Origin: Ignavibacteriae bacterium HGW-Ignavibacteriae-4
Lineage (GTDB): Bacteria; Bacteroidota; Ignavibacteria; Kapaibacteriales; UBA2268
Length of the DNA stretch: 64,000 bases
Reading direction: 5' to 3'
Assembly (NCBI GenBank): GCA_002839765.1
Contig: PGYR01000002.1
Span: forward strand, 1-64,000
In this document: positions 3,550 through 23,858 of the stretch, piece after piece
Position numbering within the stretch: position 1 is the first letter of the stretch
Layout: each line of letters opens with the position of its first letter
Position numbers and translations under genes: made by a program
Notes under the pieces: generated by a model
Database searches by the model: none
The model's input: only the letters and a program-made list of their open reading frames with translations
What the model was told of the DNA's origin: nothing

Positions 3550-3802
3550 TTTATTTTTTCATTGTAAAGGAAAGTATCGGAATTAAACATCGGACTATTT
3601 AGTCTTTTATTGTAGAGCTATTTAATTAAATTTAGTTTTTTAGAAAAGAATAAGGTTATTTTATATTAGTAACTGTACAGCTAATGGCTGGCAGTAAGGG
3701 CTTTGGAATTTTCGAATTACTATTTATCGACTTTAGCTTGCATACCAAGGCAAAAGAATGATTGGTATTGCACTCCTGTTAGAACAATAACATTCGACAA
3801 CT

Positions 3803-5152
3803 TTACCCAATCACGGGCAGCTTGAATCGCTTAGTTGGTGTTCGTTTGACTTCAGTTCGTAGCTCGGTCAGTTCACCGAATACACGGCTTTCTATCATAT
3901 TGTTGATTTGAATTTTGTGAGGTACTTGAGGTAAATCTGCAGGAGCTGGGAATATGACATTCACATAGTTCTCCGTCCATCCTCGCCACATACCGTTTTG
4001 TTCATTGTACATTTCTGGAATTACTACTCGCTCTGTTCCTACTTGAGATTCATCAAACTCTAATCGCTTTCTGTCTGATAAATCACGAAGTTGATGAGTT
4101 CTCTCTTTACGAACATCATGAGGAACAACTCCATCGAAGTTAATCGCTTTAGTGTTCTCACGTTCGGAGTAAGTAAATACGTGGAGATAAGAAATTGGCA
4201 ATCCATTAAGGAAATCATAAGTTTCTTGAGCTAATTCGTCCGTCTCACCTGGGAAACCGACTATAACGTCAACTCCTATACAGCAATGTGGCATTACTTC
4301 TTTTATACGTAATACCAAATCGTGATAATACGTTGCCTTGTAGCGGCGTTTCATCATTCGCAATAGCTCTTGCGAACCAGATTGTAGTGGTATATGGAAA
4401 TGCGGTACTATATTCTTCGAATTCGCAACTACTTCTAGTACTTCTTCCGTCAAAAGATTTGGCTCTATGGAAGATATACGAATACGCATATCACCTGATT
4501 CTTTGTCTATCAACTTCAGTGCGTCAACGAATTTCATTCCGTCATCAGTCTTATAATCACCGAGGTTTATACCTGATAACACTACTTCGCGGTAACCATC
4601 ATCTATTAATCCTTGCATCTCTTTCGCTATCTGGTCATAAGGCATACTACGGCTATGACCACGAGCAAGCGGGATAGTGCAGAATGAACAATGATAATCA
4701 CATCCATCTTGGATTTTCAGCACAGCGCGGGTACGACCTGTATTGTCTGAAACCGCTGATGTGTGGAATGGAGCATCATCTAAATCAGAGACAAATATCT
4801 CGGTTTTAGTATTCTTATTAAAATTTTCTATTAGGTTCGGAATTTCAAATTTATGCTTCGTACCTATAACAGCATCTACACCTTCTATCTTAGCCAGTTG
4901 TTCAGGTTGCAGTTGTGCATAGCATCCCAAAACACCCACGAAAGCGTTAGGCGAACGGCGAAGAGCACGGCGAACAATCTTCCTACAATCGGCATCTGCT
5001 CTATGAGTTACAGTGCATGTATTCACAAGCACTATATCAGATTTCTCTTCGAAATCAACTACATTATGCCCTAACTCCTCGAATTGTTTTGCTATACGAG
5101 AGATGTCGGCGAGATTGACTTTGCAGCCCAGATTATAAAAACTAATATTCAT
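3803..5152 (-). CDS. mtaB: tRNA (t6A37) methylthiotransferase MtaB (radical SAM)
   Basis: UPF0004 N-terminus YNLGCKVN...VNTCTVT; radical SAM CDYHCSFCTIPLARG; C-terminal TRAM-like region. Confidence 0.9.
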   Translation of the reverse strand: MNISFYNLGCKVNLADISRIAKQFEELGHNVVDFEEKSDIVLVNTCTVTHRADADCRKIVRRALRRSPNAFVGVLGCYAQLQPEQLAKIEGVDAVIGTKHKFEIPNLIENFNKNTKTEIFVSDLDDAPFHTSAVSDNTGRTRAVLKIQDGCDYHCSFCTIPLARGHSRSMPYDQIAKEMQGLIDDGYREVVLSGINLGDYKTDDGMKFVDALKLIDKESGDMRIRISSIEPNLLTEEVLEVVANSKNIVPHFHIPLQSGSQELLRMMKRRYKATYYHDLVLRIKEVMPHCCIGVDVIVGFPGETDELAQETYDFLNGLPISYLHVFTYSERENTKAINFDGVVPHDVRKERTHQLRDLSDRKRLEFDESQVGTERVVIPEMYNEQNGMWRGWTENYVNVIFPAPADLPQVPHKIQINNMIESRVFGELTELRTEVKRTPTKRFKLPVIG

Positions 5153-5488: not shown

Positions 5489-5526
5489 GTCACTCAGAGC
5501 GGAACGAAGTGGAGTGAAGAGTCTAG
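5489..5526. repeat. Dispersed intergenic repeat, GTCACTCAGAGC...GAAGAGTCCAGG family, copy 1
   Basis: gtcactcagagcggaacgaagtggagtgaagagtctagg; related copies at 53313-53350 and, inverted, 60993-61021. Confidence 0.65.
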
Positions 5527-5677
5527 GTTAAATACACTTGACTATAATTATATATAAATAAATACAAACCCTCATTACCTATTAAAACTTATATACTTAA
5601 CCGCTATTTCATCAAGTTTCACCCAAAAAAACTTTGTATTTTGTGAGACGTTTTTCGTGTTCATGTGTCTATATAGT

Positions 5678-8141: not shown

Positions 8142-9764
8142 ATGAAAATCAAACTTATTATTATACTTTTTATGTTTCCTGTATTAGTTCAGGCAGCGAG
8201 TGTATTGGACTCCATTGTGATAGAAGACATCAACACAGTTTGGACCGACGGAGATGGCTATTCTACCAGTAATATAAAGATGGGTGTAGGTGGTACTATT
8301 CGTGAGTATGACAATCAATATTTCTACAAAAATGGCCATACTGGTTATCATATAAATAAGTCCGATGGGAGTACATACAGAAAGACAACCATGAAATATG
8401 TCAAAGGTGATAAATACAATTGGAATAATAAAGGAAGTTGGGATATTTCAACTGAAGATTTAGATAAAATAATAATGGTTGATTTCAATATCGATAAATA
8501 CTTAAATTTTGAAATGACTTCTTTGAAAAATGGAAAAGTAGATTCAGTTTTTAGTTACACGAGTGCTAGAGATAACAATTTGTATAATATTCCAGCTGCA
8601 GATTTTAGAGTTTATAGTATTAATAAAAATCAGTTCCTATTGTACTACGACTATTTGATAAATGAAGGACCAAGTTTATCTCCTCGTATTGGTTCTGTTT
8701 TTGTTGATATAGAATCAAATTATGTCTTTAGAAGCCCACATGAGTTATTGTTACCGAATTTAAATGTGAATAGTAATAATAGCATTTTCTTAACTACTGA
8801 CCCTAATATTTACGAAGGATCTTATGAATATAAAGATGGTGCAGACACACATGATTTTTTTGAACTCAAAAACGATACATTTCAGCTAATAGCTAAATAC
8901 ACTGCTCCAGAAAATATGAAAAGTTGGTTCAAGGAAATACTCAGTGATTCTCTTTCGACAATCATTATTCGAGATTCGATTATGGTCTTTAACTTCCGTA
9001 ATAAAACCGTTCCAAAATCCTACTTCCTCGATGCTGAAGATAAGGTAATAGCGAAATATCACTTCGAAGATAAAAACATAATTGCTCTGATAATCAAGCA
9101 AGCTGATGGTGATAAGAGAGTTTTCGCATTCCATTATCCATCGTATAAAATACTAATTGACAAAATTGACAATGCACCATATCTGGGTGAGCTCTTGGGT
9201 GAGTTGAATGACGGCAACTTGCTGACAATTGGTGATGCGAGTACCCTATATAAGCACAAGTGGCAATACGACTTTAATGTAGCTCTAGCTGAGTTCGAGT
9301 ACAAACTCATAGATGATAATAAGATTGAATTCGGAGATTTATCAGAAGGTCCTATAAAGAGTTGGAGCTGGGACTTTGGCGATGGTGCTTCATCACAAGA
9401 GAGAAACCCCACTCACCAGTACGCAAGTAGCGGTAAATATTTTGTAATACTTACTGTCACTAATGAATATGGTAAAGTGCATCAAATTTCAAAAGAAGTA
9501 GAGGCTAAAGGTGTTTTGAAGTCGAATTTCGAGTTTACTGTCAACCAAGATGGGGGAGATAGAATAGTAGAGTGCACTAACCTTTCACCAGATAAAGCTG
9601 TGCGATATATATGGAATTTCGGTGATGGAACTTTCTCGAACGATAAGAATCCGATACACACATATAATTTTCCAGGGAAATACTATATTTCACTTACTGC
9701 ATTCGACAGTGATGGGAAATACAAAATATACCTGAAAGATGAGATAATAGAAGTAGTGAAGTGA
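8142..9764 (+). CDS. Secreted protein with two C-terminal PKD domains
   Basis: Signal MKIKLIIILFMFPVLVQA; PKD motifs IKSWSWDFGDGASSQERNPTHQY and VRYIWNFGDGTFSNDKNPIHTY. Confidence 0.85.
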   Translation: MKIKLIIILFMFPVLVQAASVLDSIVIEDINTVWTDGDGYSTSNIKMGVGGTIREYDNQYFYKNGHTGYHINKSDGSTYRKTTMKYVKGDKYNWNNKGSWDISTEDLDKIIMVDFNIDKYLNFEMTSLKNGKVDSVFSYTSARDNNLYNIPAADFRVYSINKNQFLLYYDYLINEGPSLSPRIGSVFVDIESNYVFRSPHELLLPNLNVNSNNSIFLTTDPNIYEGSYEYKDGADTHDFFELKNDTFQLIAKYTAPENMKSWFKEILSDSLSTIIIRDSIMVFNFRNKTVPKSYFLDAEDKVIAKYHFEDKNIIALIIKQADGDKRVFAFHYPSYKILIDKIDNAPYLGELLGELNDGNLLTIGDASTLYKHKWQYDFNVALAEFEYKLIDDNKIEFGDLSEGPIKSWSWDFGDGASSQERNPTHQYASSGKYFVILTVTNEYGKVHQISKEVEAKGVLKSNFEFTVNQDGGDRIVECTNLSPDKAVRYIWNFGDGTFSNDKNPIHTYNFPGKYYISLTAFDSDGKYKIYLKDEIIEVVK

Positions 9765-9770
9765 AACTCC

Positions 9771-10205
9771 CTACTTCAACCATCCTCTTTTGGTAACAGA
9801 GTCAGCATACCAAACAAGGAAAAAGCCTACTATAACTATCATCACTGGCATAATCAAAGCTGTTACACCTTTGACAGCCATAGTATTACTGAAAAATATG
9901 TTGTAAGTCATCTGAGGTACAATGCCAACAAGAGAGATAATGAAAGCAACTTTAGCCCATTTCTTTCTCATTAGTAAACCGATACAACCTATAATTCCGC
10001 CAAAGACTGCAATTGCAAATACAATATAAGTCCAAAAGGGAAAGCTATTGTAAAGTTCCTGCTCGGCTAATGGTAATGCCTCCATCATTTGATCTTTCAT
10101 TATAGTTAGGCTTAAAAAAGAGACTAAACCCATTAGATTCCACAAAAGAAAGATAACAGCTGCAACCCAATACCAAGAAGGTACTTGTATAGATTGGTTT
10201 CTCAT
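9771..10205 (-). CDS. Conserved small integral membrane protein (about 4 TM)
   Basis: 144 aa with four hydrophobic segments; no catalytic motif recognised. Confidence 0.65.
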   Translation of the reverse strand: MRNQSIQVPSWYWVAAVIFLLWNLMGLVSFLSLTIMKDQMMEALPLAEQELYNSFPFWTYIVFAIAVFGGIIGCIGLLMRKKWAKVAFIISLVGIVPQMTYNIFFSNTMAVKGVTALIMPVMIVIVGFFLVWYADSVTKRGWLK

Positions 10206-10366
10206 AGTAATTGCTCCAAATATTGTTAATCTGTAATTAATAATATTCCTAATATACTATAATCTATCAAATTACAATGCTTTATCATTTATTTTTTAGG
10301 TTGATAGAAGTAAATTAATTTATCCAAATCTTATCCATATTTTATCTGAATAATCTTATAACAAAA

Positions 10367-11179
10367 TTACTTAGTCAATTTTTTACTGATTTTTAACCAC
10401 AATTTAGAGGGTAACATTGGTTCTATTAATTGTCCGAAGTAATTAGAAGAAGTTTTTTCACCAATACCAAACTTCTCTGGTTCATGGTTAGGGCATTTAT
10501 AAGTACCAAAAATGATGTCCATCAGAGGAGAAATATTTGCATAATTACCTCCCCTTCTATCTAAATCATGATGCCAATGGTGAAGCTCAGGTGCACCTAT
10601 TATTTTTTTAATTGGTCCAATAGGTAACATTACATTAGAATGAATATATATTGCCCAAATCCCACGAAAAGCAATAACTCCAGCAATAGATTCTAACGGA
10701 AATCCCATAACAAAAGCTGGTAAATTAATCAGCCCTATTGTATAAATTGAATCTAATGGATGCTCTCTATGAGCGGCTAGCCAATCCAAATGCTCTGCAC
10801 TATGGTGCACTTTATGGAACCTCCAAAGGAAATCAACTCTATGCTGTAATCTATGCCCCCAATAGATTAGCAAGTCACTAAGCAATAATACCTCGATTAC
10901 TTGCAACAAGAAAGGCTGAGATTGAATTGCTGTTTGAAACTCAATTGGAATAAATGATGTTAGTGAATCACCAAAATAATCCAATGTCCATAAAACTAAA
11001 CTACTCCATAGTAAATATTGGCCTAAGAAAAAGCAGAAGTCAAGAAACCAATAGGGTCTAAATACTTTCTGTTCTTTTTTTGCTGGAAAGACTTTTTCCA
11101 TAGGGATAAATACTAAAGAAAGAAACAACAAACTAAGAATGGCTACTTCTAAAAGTTCATATAATTCAACAATATCCAT
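10367..11179 (-). CDS. Sterol desaturase / fatty acid hydroxylase family membrane protein
   Basis: Histidine clusters HRLQHR, HKVHHSAEH, HHWHHD. Confidence 0.9.
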   Translation of the reverse strand: MDIVELYELLEVAILSLLFLSLVFIPMEKVFPAKKEQKVFRPYWFLDFCFFLGQYLLWSSLVLWTLDYFGDSLTSFIPIEFQTAIQSQPFLLQVIEVLLLSDLLIYWGHRLQHRVDFLWRFHKVHHSAEHLDWLAAHREHPLDSIYTIGLINLPAFVMGFPLESIAGVIAFRGIWAIYIHSNVMLPIGPIKKIIGAPELHHWHHDLDRRGGNYANISPLMDIIFGTYKCPNHEPEKFGIGEKTSSNYFGQLIEPMLPSKLWLKISKKLTK

Positions 11180-14981: not shown

Positions 14982-15755
14982 ATGAAAAGAATATTATTAC
15001 TAATGTCGGTACTTATGTTACCGATGTTCCTAACGGCACAAGACGACGAAATAGATAACCTACCTTTCGATAATGAGCCACTAAGAGATGACGCTCGTAC
15101 ATATTTCGTATTAGCTGGTGGTGTTACTTATGACTATCTAATGATTAACGAAGATAATTTGAATTCATTTTTGAATAACTCAGACGATTTAAAACTATCT
15201 GGACCGATGCAGTTAACAGGTGGTCAAGGAGTACTAGGTGTTCCTTGGGTAAAAAATCTAAGATTAGGAGTGTTTGGTTATGGTGGGAGTATAGAGTCAG
15301 ATATATCTAAAATACCAGGAAAAACGGAATCGGGTGAAGACATTATTAATAACTTGCAAACTAACTTAACAGCAAGTATGTTTGGGTTTAGCGCTCATTA
15401 TGGCTATGTACCTTTTGAACATTTCGCAATATTAGGTGGAGTTAATGCTGGCTGGGGAGATGTTACGTATGAAAGTCACTTTTCAACTGATCAACTACAT
15501 GATTCATTTAATCTAGCTGGGACAGGTAATAATAAATTAGAAAAGAACTTTTTCTTTGTCATGCCTAATATCCAATTAGAATATGCTATTACTAGCTATA
15601 TTATATTGAGAGCTGACGCAAGTTATAATATGACAGTAGGGCAGGATACGGATTGGACTCAAAATACTCTAGGAACAAACACAGTAAACCCAGACTTCAA
15701 TTTAGATGGTATGAAAGTTGGATTTGGGGTAATGATTGGTCTAGCTAATTTCTAA
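14982..15755 (+). CDS. Outer membrane beta-barrel-like protein, paralog 1
   Basis: Signal MKRILLLMSVLMLPMFLTAQ; alternating hydrophobic strands; followed by a tandem paralog. Confidence 0.75.
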   Translation: MKRILLLMSVLMLPMFLTAQDDEIDNLPFDNEPLRDDARTYFVLAGGVTYDYLMINEDNLNSFLNNSDDLKLSGPMQLTGGQGVLGVPWVKNLRLGVFGYGGSIESDISKIPGKTESGEDIINNLQTNLTASMFGFSAHYGYVPFEHFAILGGVNAGWGDVTYESHFSTDQLHDSFNLAGTGNNKLEKNFFFVMPNIQLEYAITSYIILRADASYNMTVGQDTDWTQNTLGTNTVNPDFNLDGMKVGFGVMIGLANF

Positions 15756-15770
15756 TATCAAGTTTAAAAT

Positions 15771-16544
15771 ATGAATATGAAAAAAATATTATTACTTATG
15801 TCGGTACTTATGCTTCCGATGTTCCTAACGGCGCAGGACGATGAAATGGACTTGCCTTTTGAAAACGAACCATTAAAACAGGTGTCTCGAGATTATTTCG
15901 TATTAGCTGGTGGTGTTACATTTGATTGGCTAATGATAAAAGAAGATAATCTGAATTCGATCTGTGATTGTCCAGAACTACTACTCTCGGCACCAATTCA
16001 GTTGACAGGTGGCCAAGGAGTTACTGGTATTCCGTGGGTGAAAAACCTAAGATTAGGTGTTTTCGGTTATGGAGGTAGTTTACAGTCAGATCAGATTGAT
16101 TATCCAATGTTAACTGCTCAGGATTCAGTAATATTTGGGAAAAAGCAAGTGAATTTAACTGCAAGCATGTTTGGGTTTAGTATGCACTATGGATATGTCC
16201 CATTTGAGCACTTTGCAATATTAGCTGGTGTTAATGCTGGTTGGGGTGATATTACTTATGAAATATTTGCCTCTTCAACTACAATTGATGATGTTAAACA
16301 AGTTGGTGCTTTTGGGACTGATAGATTTGAGAAAAATTACTTTTTCGCAATGCCCAATATCCAGTTAGAATATGCTCTTGCAAATTTCATTATACTAAGA
16401 GCTGATGCTAGTTACAACCTAACAATAGGCCAAGATACAAAGTGGACGCACAACACAATTGGAACTTCAACAATTAACCCCAATTTCGATATATCTGGAT
16501 TGAAAGTCGGATTTGGAGTAATGGTTGGTTTAGTAAATTTTTAA
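15771..16544 (+). CDS. Outer membrane beta-barrel-like protein, paralog 2
   Basis: Same length and about the same sequence as 14982-15755; ends in KVGFGVMVGLVNF. Confidence 0.75.
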   Translation: MNMKKILLLMSVLMLPMFLTAQDDEMDLPFENEPLKQVSRDYFVLAGGVTFDWLMIKEDNLNSICDCPELLLSAPIQLTGGQGVTGIPWVKNLRLGVFGYGGSLQSDQIDYPMLTAQDSVIFGKKQVNLTASMFGFSMHYGYVPFEHFAILAGVNAGWGDITYEIFASSTTIDDVKQVGAFGTDRFEKNYFFAMPNIQLEYALANFIILRADASYNLTIGQDTKWTHNTIGTSTINPNFDISGLKVGFGVMVGLVNF

Positions 16545-21648: not shown

Positions 21649-21731
21649 TTAGTTTCGAACGAGGGGGAGTTGTCTTCTTTTTTCGGCATTTATTTATGAA
21701 AATAATTCACATAAATATTCATTATGCTGAA

Positions 21732-21790
21732 ATTCCCCTTTTTTTAAAAAGGGGTGGCAGACAACGCACCAGCGTTGACTGACGGGGTAT
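21732..21790 (+). repeat. Two-hairpin REP-like element, copy 1
   Basis: attcccctttttttaaaaaggggtggcagacaacgcaccagcgttgactgacggggtat; inverted partner at 21876-21940. Confidence 0.65.
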
Positions 21791-21875
21791 TTACATATCT
21801 ACGGAATTTGTTATTATCTGATTCTTCAGACTAATTGTATACTTTTTTCTCTATATGGTCTTTCTGCTTTTTTGA

Positions 21876-21940
21876 ACACCCCGTCTCACGCCTTTGGCGT
21901 GATCCACCCCTCTTTCGCGTTGCTTAAAGAGGGGAATATC
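21876..21940 (-). repeat. Two-hairpin REP-like element, copy 2 (inverted)
   Basis: Reverse complement attcccctctttaagcaacgcgaaagaggggtggatcacgccaaaggcgtgagacggggtgtt has the same layout as copy 1. Confidence 0.65.
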
Positions 21941-22079
21941 ACCGCTGATAACTTATCATATAAATAAACAGATAACCAATAGGGATTGTTGATATATATA
22001 AAAATTTCTTCAGTATAGATTTATTTAATTTCATTGTAATACTTTTTACTTTAATGCTTTTTCTAATAATATCCGATAC

Positions 22080-22691
22080 TTAGCGCTTTATTAATTCATC
22101 CTTAATTGCAGGAATTTCAATTATTTGTAACCTTTTATTATCATTACCAACTCTATTGGTATCTTTTTTTATATCATTTACAACTTCGAATAATATTTTT
22201 CTTATGTTTTTATCATATTCTTCAGAAAAGGAAGTGAATTTATCTTTTTCTTGAATACCAGGAGGCCAACTGAACATAAACGATGTTGGAGTTAAATAAA
22301 AGTAAAAGAAGTCACGTATAAAATCGTTATCTTTTTCTTTTAAAATGTTAATTATTTCAATATTGTTCTCACTAACAAATGAGCTTACTTTGTTAGCAAA
22401 CATATTCTGTCCATCATATGCCCAAAAGCTATTGACTCTTCTCGCACCAGACTGTGCAAATTTCTCAACAATTGACTCGACGCTTATACAAGATCCGTTA
22501 AAAATGCTATCAATATACATACTAGAGTTTATATAATCCTCAGATTCAGCGTAATGTCCATAGATATCAAGAGGAAGTTCATCAAAATAATTTTTAACTT
22601 CATTACAGCTTATCAACGACGCACTAACATTGAAAGAGTAAATAAAGAAAAATAGTGTTGTCATAATTTTACTTAATTGCAGGAATTTCAT
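22080..22691 (-). CDS. Secreted hypothetical protein, tandem paralog 2
   Basis: MKFLQLSKIMTTLFFFIYSFNVSA signal; about 200 aa; strongly similar to 22669-23262. Confidence 0.7.
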   Translation of the reverse strand: MKFLQLSKIMTTLFFFIYSFNVSASLISCNEVKNYFDELPLDIYGHYAESEDYINSSMYIDSIFNGSCISVESIVEKFAQSGARRVNSFWAYDGQNMFANKVSSFVSENNIEIINILKEKDNDFIRDFFYFYLTPTSFMFSWPPGIQEKDKFTSFSEEYDKNIRKILFEVVNDIKKDTNRVGNDNKRLQIIEIPAIKDELIKR

Positions 22692-23262
22692 TTATTTGTA
22701 ACCTTTTATTATCATTACCAACTCTATTGGTATCTTTTTTTATATCACTTACAACCTCGAATAAAATTTTTCTTAAGTTTTTATCATATTTTTCAGGGAA
22801 CTCCGGAAATTTATCTTTTTCTTGAATACCTGGAGGCCATCCTTCAAAAAATTTCATTGGAGTTTTAATAAAATAAAAGAAGTTATATATAAAATCTCTA
22901 TCTTTTTCTTTTAAAATATTGATTATTTCAATATTATTCTTTTCAACAAACAAAGTTAATTTGATATCAAACATATTCTGTTCATAAGTTGGCTCAAAGC
23001 TATTGTATCTTCTTGCACCCGATTGAGCAAATTTCTCAACAATTGACTCGACGCTTACACAAGATCCATTAAAAATGCTATCAATATACATACTATAGTT
23101 TGTATAATCCTCAGATTCAGCGTAATGTCCATAGATATCAAGAGGAAGTTCATCAAAATAATTTTTAACTTCATCACAGCTTATCAACTTCGCACTAACA
23201 TTGGATGAAAACATAAAACAAAATAGTATTGTGATAATTTTACTTAATTGCAGGAATTTCAT
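22669..23262 (-). CDS. Secreted hypothetical protein, tandem paralog 1 (overlaps paralog 2 by 23 nt)
   Basis: MKFLQLSKIITILFCFMFSSNVSA signal; shared CDEVKNYFDELPLDIYGHYAESEDY core. Confidence 0.7.
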   Translation of the reverse strand: MKFLQLSKIITILFCFMFSSNVSAKLISCDEVKNYFDELPLDIYGHYAESEDYTNYSMYIDSIFNGSCVSVESIVEKFAQSGARRYNSFEPTYEQNMFDIKLTLFVEKNNIEIINILKEKDRDFIYNFFYFIKTPMKFFEGWPPGIQEKDKFPEFPEKYDKNLRKILFEVVSDIKKDTNRVGNDNKRLQINEIPAIK

Positions 23263-23267
23263 TTATT

Positions 23268-23738
23268 CTATCGTTTATTATAATAAGGGTTTTTTTTACC
23301 GACATAAAAATCAGGTGGTGAAGTTCTAAAAGAAAAGGATAAATCTATTTTTCCATCATTTTCTTTTGCACGTATTACACAATATTCTGTAGAACGAATA
23401 TCTTTAAATATTAGGTTTGTTAAATTACTAACTTCAATAATAACATCATTATAAATTGCTGTTTTAACATCGATTACTTTCAGAACTATATTTTTGTTTG
23501 TTTTTCCATTTTTAATTATATCATTTTCTATAACAGAGTCTTTATTATTTACTTTATTTTTTATTCTTATTTTTGCTTCTAAATCCAGCTTTTCGAAATC
23601 AACAAAATAAAAATTTATTTCTTCTATTCTTTTTCCATCAATTGACTCGCAAATCTCTATGTTGCCAACCTTATTACTTGTATTTGAACAAGATTGAAAA
23701 GACAGAATGAGTGACAATATTAATAATTTCTTTATCAT
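23268..23738 (-). CDS. Small hypothetical lipoprotein
   Basis: Lipobox-like MIKKLLILSLILSFQSCSN. Confidence 0.6.
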   Translation of the reverse strand: MIKKLLILSLILSFQSCSNTSNKVGNIEICESIDGKRIEEINFYFVDFEKLDLEAKIRIKNKVNNKDSVIENDIIKNGKTNKNIVLKVIDVKTAIYNDVIIEVSNLTNLIFKDIRSTEYCVIRAKENDGKIDLSFSFRTSPPDFYVGKKNPYYNKR

Positions 23739-23858
23739 TTCATTTATTTATCCTTTTTCTTATTTCTAGAATTTCTTTCATAATTATCTTGCCCTTAAGG
23801 CTCTTTGCAATGAAATTAACAAATCTCTTCTTATTTCAATTTATACCATTTTACTCTC

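Follow-up and report, generated by a model that had tools for sequence, protein, structure and literature searches.

Two adjacent genes on the minus strand of a 64,000-nucleotide stretch of Ignavibacteriae bacterium HGW-Ignavibacteriae-4 (contig PGYR01000002.1, positions 1 to 64,000; hereafter the window) encode paralogous proteins and are joined by a short sequence that closes the first gene and, read one base further on, opens the second. This raises the question of how such a seam came about, and whether it lets a gene array expand and contract with a start and a stop restored every time, as a first-pass annotation of the locus had suggested. On the minus strand the order of the elements is R1, copy 1, R2, copy 2, R3, preceded by an upstream gene:

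23268 to 23738, minus strand: upstream gene, 156-aa lipoprotein-like protein
23240 to 23267, minus strand: R1, 28-mer with the copy 1 start, TAA ATG AAA TTC CTG CAA TTA AGT AAA
22669 to 23262, minus strand: copy 1, 197 aa, signal-peptide-like N-terminal stretch (by eye), no family match
22669 to 22696, minus strand: R2 (the seam), copy 1 stop (NEIPAIK and stop) and copy 2 start (MKFLQLSK), shifted by one base
22080 to 22691, minus strand: copy 2, 203 aa, 79% identical to copy 1, no family match
22101 to 22125, minus strand: R3, 25 bp with one mismatch, near the copy 2 end

The 28-mer TTACTTAATTGCAGGAATTTCATTTATT is identical at 22669-22696 and 23240-23267 of the window, which confirms the repeat as first annotated. 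The degenerate third copy reported with it is present as well, but it spans only 22101-22125, where 24 of 25 bases match, and it lacks the ATG: its mismatch turns the A of ATG into T, the start codon is gone and the last gene copy reads IEIPAIKDELIKR before its stop. Consecutive copies are spaced by 571 bp both times, so that the same short repeat (25 bp, 24/25) bounds the array on either side and forms its junction, with a period of 571. The window contains three exact occurrences of the 19-bp core of R, where 0.06 would be expected, and with up to two mismatches allowed the core is absent elsewhere in the 3.36-Mb genome, all three occurrences lying around the paralogous units. From base composition, a 25-bp repeat with at most one mismatch within one 632-nt gene is expected by chance about 8e-7 times, and the longest exact repeat across 500 shuffles was 14 nt, compared to 19 nt observed. 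That the repeat is fortuitous or an assembly artefact is hardly conceivable to us: the genome is a draft in 110 contigs, but the repeat far exceeds chance expectation, and with 80 differences between the copies over 591 positions an assembler could not have derived one from the other.

Reading of the frames established a tandem gene pair in which one copy ends and the next begins within the seam. In one frame of the minus strand, R2 reads AAT GAA ATT CCT GCA ATT AAG TAA (NEIPAIK and stop), the end of the ORF at 22669-23262; one base on, it reads ATG AAA TTC CTG CAA TTA AGT AAA (MKFLQLSK), the start of the ORF at 22080-22691. The two genes thereby overlap by 23 nt. An in-frame TAA inside R immediately precedes both ATGs, and a start further upstream is therefore impossible for either ORF. 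A codon-usage test of the native frame of R gave log-likelihoods of -22.3 for the frame of the 3′ end and -23.6 for the start frame, values too close to favour either.

The flanks of the three repeats indicate how the junction was formed. The left flank of R2 equals that of R3 (GATAATAAAAGGTTACAAATAA…) and its right flank equals that of R1 (…TAAAATTATNACAANAC), while identity does not continue past R in the outer flanks. Because identity extends only into the upstream flank of R3 and the downstream flank of R1, R2 has the composition of a hybrid tandem-duplication junction. We consider it probable that an orphan gene in an often refilled slot was once duplicated in tandem, long ago, through a 25-bp near-repeat present at both of its ends, and that the copies then diverged while undergoing some gene conversion. 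The ancestral gene would have encoded a small secreted or periplasmic product and carried the near-repeat at its start (R1), where it covered the start codon, and at its end (R3), where it fell within the final codons; the frames of these two positions differ by one. Slippage or unequal exchange between R1 and R3 would then have produced the order R1, unit, R2, unit, R3 with R2 as the hybrid junction. As the two end positions of R differ by one frame, this junction would double as the stop of copy 1 and the start of copy 2. Gene conversion would have acted afterwards at conserved blocks. The direct observations are the layout of three repeats around two units with its 571-bp period, the pair of reading frames, and a divergence that is old and mosaic; that R1 and R3 predate the duplication, that they recombined in this manner and that conversion followed is what we infer from them.

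The duplication also explains the identity of R1 and R2. The first-pass annotation had taken the repeat at 23240, which begins copy 1 with no paralog before it, as a sign that an upstream copy had been lost. R1=R2 follows from any tandem duplication, since the start of copy 2 derives from the start of copy 1, and a lost gene is not needed. Beyond the 5 bases that precede the ATG, the region before R1 does not significantly resemble a copy end (alignment score 5; 503 of 4329 local controls scored as high). R1 directly adjoins the stop codon of the lipoprotein-like gene, whose one clear relative, located elsewhere in a congener (G003; 30% identity, E 9e-15), ends normally and is not followed by a paralog or a paralog pair. 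We also considered whether the end of the upstream gene (…YYNKR and stop) could be what is left of a lost copy's tail (…DNKRLQ), fused to it, and rejected this, as the likeness is not significant and the G003 relative has a K-rich tail of its own.

The likeness of R1 and R3 over 25 bp (AATAA[A/T]TGAAATTCCTGCAATTAAG) goes beyond both simple duplication and chance and needs explaining. A 25-bp repeat at exactly both ends of a gene is improbable unless an earlier event made that repeat; it is either a pre-existing repeat that seeded the duplication or the leftover of an earlier array since shortened at one end. A selection effect speaks for the former, because duplications arise where repeats are: in Salmonella, spontaneous duplications have junction homologies of 11-27 bp (PMC3411829). 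According to the latter, a first duplication occurred without a pre-existing repeat, the array grew in register and a terminal copy was then deleted, either upstream, with R1 as the rest of its end, or downstream, with R3 as the rest of its start. This would account for the likeness of R1 and R3, which chance does not, and the sequence TTG AAA TTC CTG CAA TTA AGG ATG AAT TAA at R3 could be the fossil start of a third copy. Set against it, no remnant of a further copy beyond the R sequences is found in the window or the genome, nothing upstream of R1 is significantly like a copy end, and R1 directly follows the upstream gene's stop codon at a spacing normal for operons, where a random deletion would have ended only by luck. 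As R1 abuts that stop codon without copy-end likeness upstream, a downstream loss is easier to picture. At least two extra events are required in any case, and we regard a trimmed longer array as possible yet unlikely. The alternative that we prefer remains a duplication seeded by the near-repeat.

The two copies have diverged considerably. They share 86% identity at the DNA level (larger aligned block) and 79% at the protein level with a dS of 0.25 and a dN of 0.13, which makes the duplication old. Both reading frames are open and both copies appear, from these substitution rates, to evolve as proteins. The differences are distributed about evenly over the codon positions (24, 26 and 30), which points to weak purifying selection. 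They are clumped along the genes (longest run, p ~0.001): codons 81-165 show a dS of 0.45 and a dN of 0.24, compared to a dS of about 0.11 in both flanking blocks, and identical in-register runs of 72 nt (zero-based offset 88) and 56 nt remain. The clumping includes synonymous changes (Fisher p 0.015; the contrast for non-synonymous changes gave p 3e-7). The pattern is consistent with conversion or exchange in conserved blocks flanking a variable middle; uneven protein constraint could contribute to the clumping.

The mosaic is also what a live gene accordion would leave, in which the seam persists because copies come and go and a start and a stop are re-created each time. The longest exact in-register tracts of 72 and 56 nt, within 86% overall identity, and the 28-nt seam are direct repeats that may suffice for RecA exchange, and arrays of Staphylococcus aureus and streptococci with conserved blocks and variable middles behave in this way (PMC7360770, PMC9484751). 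At this locus there are only two copies, 86% identical and neither of them recent, and exchange would use the longer homology within the genes rather than the seam; we therefore hold a live accordion to be improbable. Nor would the seam need upkeep. As the unit measures 571 bp (3n+1) and every copy brings a start and a stop of its own, the genes stay intact after any in-register crossover, and starts and stops survive at whichever register-matched point it falls. The special role in expansion that had been ascribed to the seam is accordingly not borne out: the identical tracts of 72 and 56 nt within the genes exceed the 28-bp seam and are the better substrate, and since crossing over is safe at any in-register point the seam has no privileged role. 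The stronger version, that the seam is a selected, reusable joint providing an acceptable C-terminus in one frame and a signal-peptide start in the next, so that the array grows and shrinks by exchange there without breaking a gene, appears very improbable to us.

Both copies and the upstream lipoprotein-like gene lie in a strip of distinct composition:

21667 to 23756, no strand: AT-rich strip, GC about 0.24-0.31 over most of its length compared to 0.34-0.41 in the flanks

It is enclosed by two conserved genes, both encoding large proteins that bear secretion tails (Por_Secre_tail). Two congeners have the same flanking genes (82-93% protein identity) with unrelated genes between them (congener slots L011 10359-12489 and L012 5848-6371): G003 carries an Imm11-like gene, DUF6984, DUF7674 and another ORF, and G001 one unrelated ORF. 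In a third congener the 1232-aa flanking gene is present and the 1482-aa gene does not adjoin it. Of the Imm11-like gene, an 86-bp piece of the start (94% identity) persists at positions 23757-23842 of the window, and because this remnant survives, the present content has replaced, or stands in place of, an Imm11-like cassette. Judging from these gene orders, the strip appears to be a slot whose content is swapped among close relatives.

Other repeats and paralogs were noticed in this genome. A dispersed element of about 230 bp, at 21690-21960 of the window, matches 27 places in the genome and contains G+C-rich palindromes with GGGGTGG...GACGGGGT around them; the palindromes vary between copies. 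On contig C15 (locus L039) it is found at 3709-3918, 5506-5644, 9259-9456, 10074-10288 and 10898-11119; several copies there share the same orientation, being located downstream of small orphan genes for secreted proteins or lipoproteins and on either side of a DUF559 gene (PF04480, E 7.6e-30). It is possibly a small DUF559-type mobile element or a terminator-like repeat. We rejected it as a cassette boundary, as it is absent from the other border of the strip. On contig C15, the final 56 bp of a helicase-like gene (1862-1917) recur 643 bp further on at 2505-2560 (95%), enclosing a small toxin-antitoxin-like pair (1989-2514, by eye) with the gene end re-created. A second tandem paralog pair in the window (14982-15755 and 15771-16544; 257 aa each, 67% identical, membrane-protein-like by eye) is separated by an ordinary short intergenic gap and, in contrast to the pair studied here, has no dual-frame seam.

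A further possibility is that a site-specific recombinase inserted cassettes at R, as in an integron. The alternation of site and cassette at the locus has the corresponding layout, the strip content is swapped among the congeners, and the genome has other small modules with direct repeats at both ends, such as the one enclosed on L039. The two units are nevertheless paralogs rather than unrelated cargoes, and the same site was not found beside unrelated cargoes. R itself lies within coding sequence, shows no inverted-repeat core by eye and occurs nowhere else in the genome. Cassette insertion of this kind is, in our estimation, most improbable, and the duplication between near-repeats stays the preferred reading.

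Searches for homologs identified the proteins as orphans. In their own genome, relatives of either protein comprised only the pair itself. No relative was found in 101 related genomes, in 396 genomes of the phylum or 393 of the class, in two pattern scans of 85,462 species genomes, or among viral contigs, plasmids and phages; the complete return from 124 genomes of the order contained no relative, single-copy or other. The copies had no match in Pfam, NCBIfam, PADLOC or the PDB sequences, and PHROGs yielded weak matches only (best E 0.015, a family of unknown function). The structure model predicted from the two sequences was weak (pLDDT 59), and searching with its fold matched nothing (E of at least 0.86); the same family and fold searches placed neither protein in an immunity or toxin-linked family. 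Weak profile matches (E 8e-4 to 0.007) were judged to be chance, and the one inspected (L019 of genome G254) was by eye a sugar-nucleotide epimerase. From their context in a swap-prone strip, we favour the view that the two are diversifying variants of a secreted accessory protein, immunity-like or other; "immunity-like" refers to the neighbours in other genomes and not to a match of the proteins themselves.

The kind of event is largely known: an ordinary tandem-duplication scar with a neat dual-frame junction. As in the Salmonella duplications (PMC3411829), a short repeat flanks the unit and forms the junction. Here, however, both ends of a gene carry the repeat, so that coding at the junction runs in two frames, and the pair is old and diverged rather than transient. 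With gene accordions and tandem lipoprotein arrays such as csa1 of S. aureus (PMC7360770) the locus shares head-to-tail paralogs for exported proteins (export being predicted here) and exact tracts that may suffice for RecA, and in Helicobacter pylori it is flanking CHA repeats that make the first duplication of cagA possible (PMC5358911); in contrast to the csa1 and cagA accordions, our pair has only two copies, 86% identical. The tandem esaG and tipC immunity genes (PMC9484751) are likewise small accessory genes with conserved blocks at the 5′ end, middle and 3′ end around variable regions, and the alternation which this type requires is found in our pair. The differences are that our pair has no sequence relation to immunity families, no cognate toxin identified nearby and only two members.

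The locus offers a clean example of a duplication with breakpoints in coding sequence that yields two intact overlapping genes at once. In this one case, which is without relatives, the end of a gene was recycled as the start of its own copy. If relatives with other copy numbers exist, the seam may illustrate the origin of frame-shifted overlaps between paralogs and would provide a short diagnostic sequence for counting copies.
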